The notes under the pieces were generated by a model that saw only the letters and a program-made list of their open reading frames with translations, was not told the DNA's origin and did not search any database. Shown here one piece after another: positions 57,783 to 61,822 of a DNA stretch of 64,000 nucleotides. Source of the stretch: Clostridia bacterium (GTDB lineage: Bacteria > Bacillota > Clostridia > Oscillospirales > Acutalibacteraceae); NCBI GenBank assembly GCA_017548045.1, contig JAFYNR010000030.1, positions 1 through 64,000 of the forward strand, in the 5' to 3' direction. A program made the position numbers and the translations under genes. Positions within the stretch are counted from its first letter, which is position 1, and each line of letters begins with the position of its first letter.

Positions 57783-58769
57783 ATGAGGCAAGAAGAAATT
57801 GCAACCCTTCCGGCTCTTGTTAGAGTATATCTTAACTATCTTATGTCTGTTAAAGCAAAATCCGAATTAACCGTACTCGAATACGGTTCTGATCTCAGAC
57901 TTTTTTTCAGATATATTTCTCGCATAAAAGGTCTGTGTGACAAATCCACACCTTTTGATGAAATTAATATTTCGCTTTTATCTAACGATGTGATATTTAA
58001 CGTTACACTCGAAGATGCTTATTCTTTCCTCGCCTATTGCAGAAAAGAAAGAAATAACGATACAAATGCCCGCGCACGAAAAGTTGTTGCCATAAAGCGT
58101 TTTTATAAATATCTGGAAATTAACGGTTATATTGAAAACAACAGAATTGCTTTTCTTGAATCACCTCAAACAAAACGCGGATTGCCCAAATATCTTTCTC
58201 TTGAGCAAAGTGTTATGCTTCTTCAAAGCGTAGACGGTAAATTTAAGGAACGTGATTACTGTATACTTACACTATTTCTCAACTGCGGTCTTCGACTTTC
58301 TGAGCTTGTAGGCATAAATATTTCTCATATCAAGGATAATAATACGCTTGTCGTTCTTGGTAAAGGAAATAAAGAAAGAACGATTTATCTTAACAACGCC
58401 TGCCTTTCCGCAATCAGTTCATATATGGCTGTCCGTCCAGCAGACGGTGTAAAGGACAGAGATGCACTTTTTATAAGCAACCAAAAAAAGCGCATAAGCA
58501 GACAAAGTGTTCAGAAAATGGTTGAAGGATATTTGAAAAAGTGCGGACTTGACGGTATGGGATTCTCCACACACAAGTTAAGACATACCGCCGCTACGCT
58601 TATGTACCAACACGGAAACGTTGACCCGTTGCAGCTTAAAGAAATTCTCGGTCACGAAAATCTTTCAACAACAGAAATTTACACTCATATTCACAGTGAA
58701 CAGCTCAAGAGAGCCGTTGACTCAAACCCGTTAAATAACCCTTCAAATTTCAAAAAAACCGGTGAATAA
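57783..58769 (+). CDS. Tyrosine recombinase, XerC/XerD-like
   Basis: 328 residues. SAM-like N-terminal core-binding domain (about 8-120; TVLEYGSDLRLFFRYI) and catalytic domain with R171 (CGLRLSELVG), Lys in GKGNKERTI, H264 and R267 (HKLRH), H291 (LGHENLS) and Y300 (EIYTHI), all in place. Could be the chromosomal dimer resolution recombinase of this lineage or a specialised recombinase. ATG 57783 is used with GAGGTGA before it; GTG 57774 lies inside that site. No phage or integrative-element genes surround it. Its last 27 bases overlap the convergent spoIIM gene. Confidence 0.88.
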   Translation: MRQEEIATLPALVRVYLNYLMSVKAKSELTVLEYGSDLRLFFRYISRIKGLCDKSTPFDEINISLLSNDVIFNVTLEDAYSFLAYCRKERNNDTNARARKVVAIKRFYKYLEINGYIENNRIAFLESPQTKRGLPKYLSLEQSVMLLQSVDGKFKERDYCILTLFLNCGLRLSELVGINISHIKDNNTLVVLGKGNKERTIYLNNACLSAISSYMAVRPADGVKDRDALFISNQKKRISRQSVQKMVEGYLKKCGLDGMGFSTHKLRHTAATLMYQHGNVDPLQLKEILGHENLSTTEIYTHIHSEQLKRAVDSNPLNNPSNFKKTGE

Positions 58770-59372
58770 TGCGGTGAATACCGCATCTGTTGCTGAGGAA
58801 AGAATACAAATCGCCGCAAACAAAATCTGTCTTGTCAGGAAGTATTTTGTTTCGCCTTTTTCAAACTGACCCCTTCCCTTCACGGCCTTAGCGAAAGCAT
58901 TTTTGGAATACTCGCAACTGTCGTTACACGCAATCAAAAAAGCAAATACTGATACAACAGCACCGGGATATACCGTCAGAACACAATATCCCAGACCGGT
59001 AAGCTTATAGACAGAATACATATATCCGCTCAAAACACCGAATCCTAAGCCGCGAAGAACAGGCAGCCACATAATAAAGGGATAACCGATAAGCGAAAAC
59101 CCGAAAAACACACTAAGAATATTAAATGACATACAGATTTTTAACGAATCAAAAAAATTCTCACCTATCCCCTTTTCTGCTCGGTTCTGAACAAAGCTTA
59201 CCGCTATTTGTTTTACCTCAGAAAATAAATCTGACGGATTATCAATCATAACAGCGCCGAAAATAATTCCTGCCGCAAACAGAATAGTAAGAAAAAATAT
59301 TCTTGAATTTTCAAATATTCTTTTCAGCGCTTTGCCGTTATAAACCTTATAATTTAATTTGGACTTGCTCAT
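58743..59372 (-). CDS. spoIIM: Stage II sporulation protein M
   Basis: 209 residues, integral membrane protein with about five hydrophobic helices. IFFLTILFAAGIIFGAVM near the N-terminus, FNILSVFFGFSLIGYPFIMWLPVLRGLGFG and a final pair of helices match SpoIIM, a component of the mother-cell SpoIIDMP engulfment machine. Preceded by GGAGGT. The start codon and next codons form the 3' arm of a 13-bp hairpin (59360-59416), and a sigma-E-like promoter overlaps the other arm, suggesting developmental control of translation. The 3' end overlaps the convergent recombinase gene by 27 bases. Confidence 0.9.
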   Translation of the reverse strand: MSKSKLNYKVYNGKALKRIFENSRIFFLTILFAAGIIFGAVMIDNPSDLFSEVKQIAVSFVQNRAEKGIGENFFDSLKICMSFNILSVFFGFSLIGYPFIMWLPVLRGLGFGVLSGYMYSVYKLTGLGYCVLTVYPGAVVSVFAFLIACNDSCEYSKNAFAKAVKGRGQFEKGETKYFLTRQILFAAICILSSATDAVFTALFTGFFEI

Positions 59373-59416
59373 TTTTTACCTCCGAAAGCTTTTTGTAAAA
59401 TATATGAGCAAGTCCA
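59360..59416 (-). repeat. 13-bp hairpin sequestering the spoIIM start codon
   Basis: On the minus strand TGGACTTGCTCAT (59416-59404) is the exact complement of ATGAGCAAGTCCA (59372-59360), the first codons of spoIIM. The 31-base loop holds the ribosome binding site. Confidence 0.75.
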
Positions 59417-59427
59417 TTTTTATATTA
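59399..59427 (-). promoter_or_regulatory. Candidate sigma-E promoter of spoIIM
   Basis: On the minus strand TAATATA (59427-59421), 14-bp spacer, CATATATT (59406-59399): the -10 agrees at six of eight positions with CATACAMT and the -35 keeps the ATAT core; spacing is right for sigma-E. Transcription would begin near 59392, inside the hairpin loop. Confidence 0.45.
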
Positions 59428-59456
59428 CAAAAGACGGATGATTACCATCCGTCTTT
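59424..59456 (-). terminator. Terminator after pcrA
   Basis: AAAGACGGATG (59430-59440) pairs with CATCCGTCTTT (59446-59456) around a five-base loop; on the minus strand the stem is followed by TTTTG. Confidence 0.88.
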
Positions 59457-59461
59457 ATAAA

Positions 59462-61822
59462 TCATTTCTTTTCAACCTTGGCATAATTTGCCATAATTTT
59501 TTTCGTTCCTGCTGCTGTAAATGCTATCTCAAGCAACGTATCATTGCCCATAGGCTTTGCGCTGAGAACGATACCTTCTCCGTATGCCTTATGAATTACG
59601 GTATCGCCAACATTGAATACCGCCGTATTCTTTGCAGGTACTGAAACAGAAGCTGCAGAAGTGAAGCCTCTTGAAGGAGTCTGGGATTTTGAAGATGCCT
59701 GTGAAAATCCTGTTGCAAACGATGTTTTCAGTGTTTCGCCCGTTCTTTCCATAAGCTCTTCGGGAATTTCTCTGATAAATCTTGAAGGCTGATTAAAGCG
59801 TGTCTGCCCGAAAATCATACGGGTTTTGGCTCTCGTAATATACAAGCGCTTCTTTGCTCTTGTAACGGCAACATAAGCCAGTCTGCGTTCTTCTTCAATC
59901 TCCTCCTGACCTGCCATAGTCGACATATCCGAAGGAAAAATGGATTCCTCCATACCTACAAGAAATACAACCGGAAATTCAAGGCCTTTTGCAGCGTGAA
60001 CCGTCATAAGAACAACAGTTTCAGCCTCGGCATTATAGTTATCGATATCGGTCATAAGTGCAACTTCCTGCAGGAAATCATTGAGAGTTGCATCACCGTT
60101 ATCATTTGAGAAGCGAAGAAGGTTATTTGCAAGTTCATCAAGGTTTGCAAGACGATCTTCTTTTGTTTCAGGTTCATTTGAAAGTGAATCAACGTAACCC
60201 GATACATTTATAACTCTCTTGAAAAGCTCGGATAATTCTGTATTTTCCATTTCATCAATGAAATCTTCAATCATCCTCGCAAATTCAAGCATTTTCTTTG
60301 CGCTTCTGCTGAGTTTTGGGAATTGATCTGCAGATTTGATAACGTCAAAAAGACCTATTCCCAGGCCGTCTGCAATCTCCTGTGCGGCGGCAACGGAAGA
60401 GTCTCCGATTCCTCTCTTTGGAACGTTAATTATCCTTTGAAGTCTGACGCTGTCATTGGGGTTAACAAGCACGCTGAGATAGGCAAGAGCATCTTTGATT
60501 TCTTTACGGTCATAGAATTTGTGACCGCCTATAAGTCGGTAAGGTATGCCCATTCTGACAAAGGACTGCTCAATATGGTTTGACTGCGAGTTCATTCTGT
60601 AAAGAACTGCAAAATCACTGTATTTTCTGCCGTTTCTTATGCCGTCGTAAACCTTATCGGCAACATAAAAACCCTCGTCTCTGTCTGAATCTGCAGTGTG
60701 ATATGTTATAAGTTCTCCCCTGCCGTTATCGGACCAAAGGTTTTTGCCTTTTCTGTTTTGGTTGTTTGAGATGATCTTGTTTGCGGCATCAAGAATATTC
60801 TGGGTTGATCTGTAATTCTGTTCAAGGCGGATTACCTTTGCGTTTATATACTGATGTTCAAAGCTGAGGATATTCTCAATGGTTGCACCTCTGAATTTGT
60901 AAATACTCTGGTCATCATCGCCGACAACACAGATGTTTTTATAACCGCCTGCAAGCAACGAAGTAAGAAGATACTGTGCGTGGTTGGTATCCTGATACTC
61001 GTCAACCATAATATACTTGAATTTACGCTGATAATATTCAAGTACCTCAGGATTATTCTGCAAAAGACGGACCGTATTTACAATTATATCATCAAAATCC
61101 ATTGCATCTGCGGCTTTAAGGCGTTTCTGATACGCTTCATACACCGAACCGATATTTCTTTTTCGGATATCCATATAGTTTTCTTTTATATATTCTTCCG
61201 GAGAACTAAGCATATCCTTTGCACTGCTGATTGCACCTAAAACACTCTTGGGTGTAAGGATATTATCCGAGAAACCAAGCTGTTTCAGACAATCTTTTAT
61301 AATACGTTTACTGTCATCCGTATCATAAATAGTGAAATTGGAAGAATAACCTATATAATCGGCATTTCGTCTGAGGATTCTGACACAAGAAGCGTGAAAC
61401 GTACTCGCCCAGATATCTCTCGCCTGCTCACCAAGCATTCTTTCAAGCCTGTCCTTGAGCTCACCTGCCGCTTTATTTGTGAATGTAATCGCAAGTATTT
61501 CCCAAGGCCTTGCGGCATCAACCTTAAGCAAGTGCTCGATATCAAACGCATCGTCAATAACGCCGTCAGCATATGCACGCATCAAAGCAAGTTCATCGCT
61601 TGTGGGTTCATATTCAACAGAATCACTGTAATAAGCCTTACCGTATTTTATAAGGTTAGCTATACGGTTTACAAGCACGGTTGTTTTACCGCTGCCTGCA
61701 CCGGCAAGCACCAAAAGCGGTCCCTCCGTAGAAAGGACCGCTTTTTTTTGCATATCATTAAGGGAACTGAAATCCCTTTCAATAATTCTTTTTCGTAATG
61801 AAAGAAAATCGTTAGAAAGCAT
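59462..61822 (-). CDS. pcrA: ATP-dependent DNA helicase PcrA (UvrD family)
   Basis: 786 residues. Superfamily 1A helicase: motif I VLAGAGSGKTTVLVNRI, Ia TFTNKAAGELKDRL, II VDEYQDTNHAQ, III VVGDDDQSIYKFRGA, IV EQNYRSTQNIL, V MTVHAAKGLEFPVVF and VI RRLAYVAVTRAKKRL. The last 60 residues are the Tudor-like domain that contacts RNA polymerase. 3'-5' helicase for repair and replication-transcription conflicts. It starts eight bases after pfkA with GAGGT upstream, so it is in one unit with pfkA. Confidence 0.96.
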   Translation of the reverse strand: MLSNDFLSLRKRIIERDFSSLNDMQKKAVLSTEGPLLVLAGAGSGKTTVLVNRIANLIKYGKAYYSDSVEYEPTSDELALMRAYADGVIDDAFDIEHLLKVDAARPWEILAITFTNKAAGELKDRLERMLGEQARDIWASTFHASCVRILRRNADYIGYSSNFTIYDTDDSKRIIKDCLKQLGFSDNILTPKSVLGAISSAKDMLSSPEEYIKENYMDIRKRNIGSVYEAYQKRLKAADAMDFDDIIVNTVRLLQNNPEVLEYYQRKFKYIMVDEYQDTNHAQYLLTSLLAGGYKNICVVGDDDQSIYKFRGATIENILSFEHQYINAKVIRLEQNYRSTQNILDAANKIISNNQNRKGKNLWSDNGRGELITYHTADSDRDEGFYVADKVYDGIRNGRKYSDFAVLYRMNSQSNHIEQSFVRMGIPYRLIGGHKFYDRKEIKDALAYLSVLVNPNDSVRLQRIINVPKRGIGDSSVAAAQEIADGLGIGLFDVIKSADQFPKLSRSAKKMLEFARMIEDFIDEMENTELSELFKRVINVSGYVDSLSNEPETKEDRLANLDELANNLLRFSNDNGDATLNDFLQEVALMTDIDNYNAEAETVVLMTVHAAKGLEFPVVFLVGMEESIFPSDMSTMAGQEEIEEERRLAYVAVTRAKKRLYITRAKTRMIFGQTRFNQPSRFIREIPEELMERTGETLKTSFATGFSQASSKSQTPSRGFTSAASVSVPAKNTAVFNVGDTVIHKAYGEGIVLSAKPMGNDTLLEIAFTAAGTKKIMANYAKVEKK

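Follow-up and report, generated by a model that had tools for sequence, protein, structure and literature searches.

Can the promoter of a sporulation gene also keep that gene silent on RNA that enters from upstream? The spoIIM locus of a Clostridia bacterium (Acutalibacteraceae; genome of 2.38 Mb in 68 contigs) raises this question. In the stretch of 64,000 nucleotides analysed here (the window), spoIIM occupies 58743..59372 on the minus strand and encodes 209 aa (PF01944, E 2.4e-12), with 86% identity to SpoIIM of the Oscillospiraceae MAG SIG555 and 62% to that of MAG SIG586. The co-directional upstream gene, pcrA (59462..61822, minus strand; UvrD-helicase, UvrD_C, and PcrA tudor domains), is the proposed source of read-through RNA into spoIIM, and a tyrosine recombinase gene is convergent with spoIIM. 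An earlier note on this DNA, which had identified both genes correctly, took the leader for a hairpin that locks read-through RNA. Our analysis supports that reading, and we assign a probability of about 0.8 to the spoIIM leader being a cis-acting lock on translation of read-through RNA. In the mechanism proposed, the spoIIM sigma-E promoter, through its spacer and -10, would be complementary to the Shine-Dalgarno (SD)/start-codon region. RNA entering from a co-directional upstream gene, here pcrA, would carry both arms and close the start codon within a long stem, which would keep SpoIIM from being made in growing cells. Mother-cell sigma-E RNA polymerase would start just downstream of the 5' arm, and its RNA, unable to form the stem, would be translated. 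We infer the existence of the read-through RNA, the start of the sigma-E RNA and the effect on translation; SpoIIM made early would presumably be harmful or wasteful.

At this locus the 5' arm, TGGACTTGCTCAT (59404..59416, minus strand), is the exact reverse complement of the 3' arm, ATGAGCAAGTCCA (59360..59372, minus strand), over 13 nt each. The former lies in the sigma-E promoter, covering spacer and the first 3 nt of the -10, and the latter covers the spoIIM start codon, codons 2-4 and the first base of codon 5. Between them, a loop of 31 nt (59373..59403, minus strand) contains the SD, GGAGGT (59378..59383, minus strand). The promoter itself consists of a sigma-E-like -35, TAATATA (59421..59427, minus strand), and, after a 14-nt spacer, a sigma-E-like -10, CATATATT (59399..59406, minus strand). 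All 12 genus leaders have T[AC]ATA at the corresponding -35 position, give or take 1 nt, and CATATA is unchanged in every one of them. In sigma-E promoters, transcription is expected to start near +15 from the C of CATA, which places the predicted start at 59391..59392 (minus strand), and RNA from there is predicted to lack the 5' arm. An ATA motif is also what has been reported for the sigma-E -35 of Clostridioides difficile (PMC3789822).

RNA covering both arms is predicted to fold mainly into this stem, which is present in the minimum-energy and centroid structures, and the fold of 59425-59340 reaches -23.7 kcal/mol (z -5.8; 0/200 shuffles as good). Among 48 SD-supported genes of the window, the strongest duplex of [-85,-25] with [0,+24] belongs to the spoIIM leader (-23.0, against -15.7 for the runner-up). 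Opening -14..+4 is computed to cost 12.1 kcal/mol in read-through RNA versus 2.7 in the predicted sigma-E RNA, and a helix in the longer RNA is thus predicted to sequester the SD and/or start codon. What the earlier note had described here, namely the exact 13-base complementarity, the SD in a 31-base loop, the promoter over the 5' arm and the pairing of the start codon in read-through RNA, was found again base for base or, in the last case, borne out by the predicted fold.

Other identities for the hairpin found little support. The U-run expected of an intrinsic terminator or attenuator is missing directly 3' of the 3' arm, where AATTAAATT comes next; our terminator scan could not have listed this hairpin either way, since it covered only loops of 3-8. 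Rfam gave 6 matches at E <= 1 in 59250-59650, every one under its gathering score (the best with E 0.0082 and 21.4 bits against a gathering score of 100). The arm does not belong to a repeat family, since at up to 3 mismatches it has 51 matches in its own genome versus 69 for the reversed pattern, and a short upstream ORF within the arm is not conserved in the genus leaders, as judged by eye. A feature that the earlier note had not mentioned is the intrinsic terminator of pcrA directly upstream (stem about 59431..59455, minus strand). By eye, a hairpin followed by a T-rich stretch lies between pcrA and the spoIIM promoter in 12/12 genus leaders, so any read-through must pass it. This counts against the lock, as the terminator-like hairpin should on its own stop most read-through.

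Within the genus (45 genomes), SpoIIM was found in 13, the window's own included. pcrA precedes spoIIM co-directionally at 12 of the 13 loci, and at these same 12 the 15-mer GGACTTGCTCATATA is unchanged, with 30-36 nt from its CAT to the ATG. The exact 15-mer occurs nowhere else in the 45 genomes, where its eight one-mismatch copies all lie inside long ORFs; it was found in 7/398 family genomes (5 own-genus spoIIM loci and 2 inside ORFs). Nine of its 15 bases are promoter spacer, and spacer bases are not known to be needed by sigma-E. The start sides vary (ATGAGC, ATGGGC, ATGCGC, ATGCGT, ATGAGT, ATGAAC), and codons 2-4 nonetheless keep 7-9 of 9 possible pairs with the 5' arm. Over the 12 loci, 98/108 such pairs were observed versus 68.4 +/- 4.3 expected from synonymous choice, with codons drawn by usage in the rest of the same 12 genes; the significance of this difference is overstated because the relatedness of the loci is ignored. 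Codon 3 is AAG or AGG in 12/12, in genes that elsewhere use AAA and AAG at 100:31. One leader (L013) pairs poorly: 45% of foreign starts would do at least as well as its own. Conservation of the arms in close relatives, on which the earlier note had staked its reading, was therefore found, with a 5' arm identical in 12/12. The compensatory changes that it had asked for were not found in the genus: start-side mismatches (ATGCG..., ATGAAC...) have no matching change in the 5' arm, because that arm never varies. Its fixity even opposite such mismatches is a point against the lock, and the invariant arm may have a second role.

The remaining genomes of the genus differ. In 32/45, several of them at least 95% complete, no match to the window's SpoIIM was found, which suggests repeated sporulation loss or strong divergence. 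A divergent copy (33% identity) in G009 lacks both the 15-mer and an upstream pcrA.

As the 15-mer is limited to the genus, we looked in other genera for the same pairing made by different sequences. A family search found spoIIM at E <= 1e-8 in 102/145 genomes, and 89 of the 101 non-own matches, from 83 other genera, were used as leaders; the 12 left out were the 11 lowest-scoring and one too close to a contig end. Start codons were assigned by an automatic procedure from SD and distance, which certainly misplaced some of them. In a swap test, the promoter region of each leader was compared with its own start region and with those of swapped partners. For [-80,-20] against [-18,+22], own complementarity exceeded swapped complementarity at z 14.7-15.1 (0/5000 permutations), with 60/89 leaders scoring at least 18 where 22.1 were expected, and this is where compensatory change, absent in the genus, was found. 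The result holds with GC-matched swaps (z 14.5, 0/300), in the 77 leaders with a clear SD (z 13.7) and after removal of 3 near-duplicates (z 14.7). The codon choice in the genus and the swap tests in the family both indicate that the pairing is kept by selection.

Ungapped complementarity peaks for [-50,-20] against [-20,+4] (z 11.7; 29 leaders at 18 or above versus 5.4 expected), is still high for [-65,-35] against [-20,+4] (z 8.8) and falls to z -1.1 to 3.4 for more distant pairs of windows. By RNAduplex energy, [-85,-25] gave z -5.25 with [0,+24] and z -0.8 to -1.8 with windows over later codons; a segment further upstream gave z -0.06 with the start and -2.5 with [24,48]. Among the 47 other genes of the window, z was 1.0-1.5 against [-20,+4] and -0.2 to 0.6 against [0,20]. 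For 173 neighbouring genes, no excess complementarity was found in the main window pair (z -0.59 for the 121 with an upstream gap of at least 75 nt, -0.22 for the 52 with less), and narrower windows gave z -1.2 to 2.2. That some control windows reach z 2.2 and some distant spoIIM pairs z 3.4 weighs against the lock.

Examples illustrate how the letters change. L147 pairs GCCCTTCATATTATTTAAC with GTTAAATAATATGAAGGGT, L197 TCCTCTGCATAGAATGT with ACATTCTATGCAAAGGA, L146 TATAGCATATAATT with AATTATATGCTATA, and L170 TTCATAAAATCCT with AGGATTTTATGAA. CATA lies inside arm 1 of all four; arm 2 holds the start codon in L147, L197 and L170 and sits in codons 3-8 in L146. When the CAT of the -10 was required to pair with the ATG, the signal was weak (z 2.7; an own run of at least 5 in 6/74 versus 2.2 expected): the arms slide between leaders rather than keep a fixed CAT-to-ATG register. 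Outside the family, 27 of 33 spoIIM matches in the class were used as leaders and gave z 1.5 to 4.6 by window, with 4.6 in the main one. Some of these, judged by eye, have an arm that amounts to an anti-SD within the spacer (e.g., TCCTCCTTTTG with CAAAAGGGGGA in L242). Bacilli, B. subtilis spoIIM among them, and further sigma-E genes lie outside the sample.

Inverted copies of a protein-binding site would also be complementary, and the arms could accordingly be DNA operator half-sites for SpoIIID or another mother-cell repressor, the first lying in the promoter spacer and the second where the gene begins, with RNA pairing as a by-product. The SpoIIID core is GGACA. The family leaders (89) have TGTCC mainly at -60..-31 (17 counts over two bins of 15 nt, against 0-3 in any other bin) and GGACA mainly at 0..+14 (18 counts, against 0-7 in any other bin), and TTGTCC lies in the promoter region of 9/11 own-genus spoIVA leaders (L068-L078). 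A binding site would account for the invariant 5' arm of the genus, and in B. subtilis, GerR is reported to switch off spoIIM, and SpoIIID to switch off spoIID and spoIVA (PMC517825). However, z is still 10.5 for the 42 leaders that lack every TGTCC/TTGTC and GGACA/GACAA core, and TGTCC-type words and GGACA occur together in just 8/89 leaders, where about 5.8 are expected from their counts of 26 and 20. Arm sequences differ from genus to genus, a change that protein-binding repeats do not predict, and the spacing inside the own genus ranges from 30 to 36 nt. GGACA was not found in both arms there, the 5' arm reading GAGCAAGTC on the other strand, and the own-genus word GAGCAAG departs from the SpoIIID core. 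We therefore hold it unlikely that operators explain the complementarity. Being strand- and position-specific in the family leaders (L109-L197), the TGTCC/GGACA words may be real operators superimposed on the hairpin, and overlap with a binding site is one possibility that may explain the frozen 5' arm of the own genus.

Further predictions of a read-through lock concern where arm 1 ends and which gene lies upstream. A -10 was called in 72/89 family leaders. Counted from the C of CATA, arm 1 covers positions 0..+4 most often (22), then +5..+9 (21), +10..+14 (13), +15..+19 (8) and +20..+24 (4). In 37/47 leaders scoring at least 20, arm 1 is over by +14 (12.2 expected from swaps), that is, before the expected start near +15, so the sigma-E RNA would mostly lack it; in the other 10/47 it runs past the predicted start, which counts against the lock. 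For 72 family leaders, the computed cost of opening -14..+4 is 12.5 kcal/mol in the read-through RNA, 7.5 when the upstream region is foreign and 5.2 in the predicted sigma-E RNA (own above swapped, p 1.5e-12). For read-through, swapped and sigma-E RNA, the corresponding costs are 11.5, 8.6 and 7.7 kcal/mol for class spoIIM (18 leaders, p 0.0014) and 12.7, 9.6 and 6.0 for spoIIID (27 leaders, p 0.0019). In the own genus (12 leaders) they are 11.3, 10.9 and 2.6, with no significant difference between own and swapped (p 0.21) because all 12 share one 5' arm.

The excess of own over swapped complementarity also tracks the orientation of the upstream gene. It averages 6.47 in the 54 leaders behind a co-directional neighbour with room for a promoter (32 at 5 or above), 3.09 in the 20 with a divergent neighbour (4 at 5 or above) and 0.39 in the 12 whose co-directional neighbour abuts, with its stop within 45 nt (1 at 5 or above); 3 neighbours were uncalled. 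Because ORF length was used to assign neighbours, some of these labels will be wrong. The fractions of strong pairing in the second and third groups (4/20 and 1/12) differ from that in the first (32/54) at Fisher p 0.004 and 0.003, and the co-directional and divergent excesses differ at p 0.023 (Mann-Whitney), in a test that reached as far as about 2.2 kb upstream in 60 leaders. An initial, cruder version that looked no further than 900 nt had not reached significance (p 0.16), which weighs against the lock. What is observed or computed comprises the two arms and how they evolve jointly, where they lie on the promoter, this neighbour dependence and the predicted change in accessibility, and pairing that is kept while both strands change, lies on the promoter and depends on the neighbour is what a read-through lock predicts.

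The same arms would act identically on any longer RNA. The long RNA could then be a deliberate silent isoform from an earlier, second promoter, or the hairpin could be opened by a signal, and the device would time spoIIM. Four of the 20 divergent-neighbour leaders pair strongly, which run-in from a divergent gene cannot explain and which tells against the lock. The dependence on orientation, however, speaks against a timing device, as do the genes found upstream of strongly pairing leaders: of ten co-directional ones checked, all chosen from leaders with an excess above 5, 7 are proC-type (pyrroline-5-carboxylate reductase) and 3 radical SAM genes. We regard a timing role as distinctly unlikely. 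Chance or neutral inverted duplication, retained because the 5' arm lies on a promoter and the 3' arm on a coding start that are both conserved for other reasons, is very improbable, given that synonymous positions of codons 2-4 follow the pairing (as at codon 3, AAG or AGG in 12/12) and that the covariation is family-wide, with null controls in the same window.

Precedents exist for such a read-through lock. In T4, longer early RNAs of gene e (also soc, 49 and I-TevI) are described as sequestering the SD and/or AUG, and late-promoter RNAs, which lack the 5' strand of the structure, as well translated (PMC3014915). The earlier note had invoked this logic for spoIIM, and the arms, the promoter position and the neighbour test support it: as in T4, the long spoIIM RNA would sequester the start, and RNA from the sigma-E promoter is predicted to lack the 5' strand. 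T4 differs in being a phage early/late switch rather than a bacterial developmental sigma factor, and the parts of that account available to us mention no intervening terminator. The closer precedent is B. subtilis sigG (spoIIIG), likewise a sporulation gene, where a large hairpin has been proposed to silence RNA read through from spoIIG, transcripts of sigG's own promoter being unable to form it (PMC5942855). As described for B. subtilis, sigG has a forespore sigma-F/sigma-G promoter and a sporulation operon upstream, whereas spoIIM belongs to the mother-cell sigma-E genes, has pcrA, proC-type or radical SAM genes upstream and shows family-wide covariation. That paper cites Sun 1991 and Masuda 1988 for the sigG proposal. 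The transposase leaders of IS10 and IS50 are protected from outside promoters in a similar way, outside RNA folding the transposase start region and the element's own RNA not; unlike spoIIM, these are mobile elements that need protection from a random insertion context. Yeast LUTI repression, in a eukaryote, relies on upstream ORFs rather than a hairpin. It resembles the lock proposed for spoIIM in that a long isoform is reported to be poorly translated and a short one translated (PMC8153250). Among open-licence papers, searched by titles and abstract openings, no description of such a device at spoIIM, spoIIID or spoIIIAA was found. The mechanism is thus of a known kind; its presence at spoIIM, the family-wide joint evolution and the neighbourhood dependence are new as far as our searches go.

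Two other sigma-E genes show weaker versions of the spoIIM pairing at the sequence level. In the main window pair, z was 4.5 for spoIIID (best 30 of 53 rows, one being the window's own genome) and 3.5 for spoIIIAA (best 30 of 54). For the [-50,-20] window, spoIIM subsampled to 30 leaders gave a median of 5.9, spoIIID 3.3 and spoIIIAA 0.7. Leaders of spoIVA (best 30 of 120) gave z 0.1-1.7 by window and 0.14 in the main one, a weak control because 22/30 closely follow a co-directional ORF; spoIID was dropped as a sigma-E control, its leaders being unusable as a promoter-proximal set. By eye, the sigma-E spacer of some spoIIID promoters (L287-L316) contains an anti-SD (e.g., L309 and L313), and in some spoIIIAA leaders (L257-L286) a spacer TTGTCC pairs with GGACAAG at the SD/start (e.g., L258 and L259).

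We consider it an even bet that a rule holds across the regulon in Clostridia: sigma-E genes behind vegetative genes would keep the spacer and -10 complementary to their own SD/start, re-matching the arms as sequences drift and losing the lock on joining an upstream operon, with spoIIM as the strongest case and spoIIID and spoIIIAA included. Sporulation control is usually described as sigma factors acting at the promoter. If the lock is real, the on-switch of spoIIM in spore-forming gut bacteria doubles as the complement of its own start signal, and if sporulation promoters in general carry an anti-start strand as well, leak control is one of their functions. In that case promoter spacers could not be read as neutral, and leader sequences could predict which genes are too costly to express early. 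The signature, own-versus-swapped complementarity together with neighbour orientation, is a cheap test for any regulon.

A separate observation concerns the spoIIID gene itself. In 4/60 family genomes (G051, G056, G078, and G089), the spoIIID match is split in two, its parts separated by 3 to 28 kb or lying on different contigs. This suggests an insertion in the gene, and such an insertion would recall the skin element of sigK.
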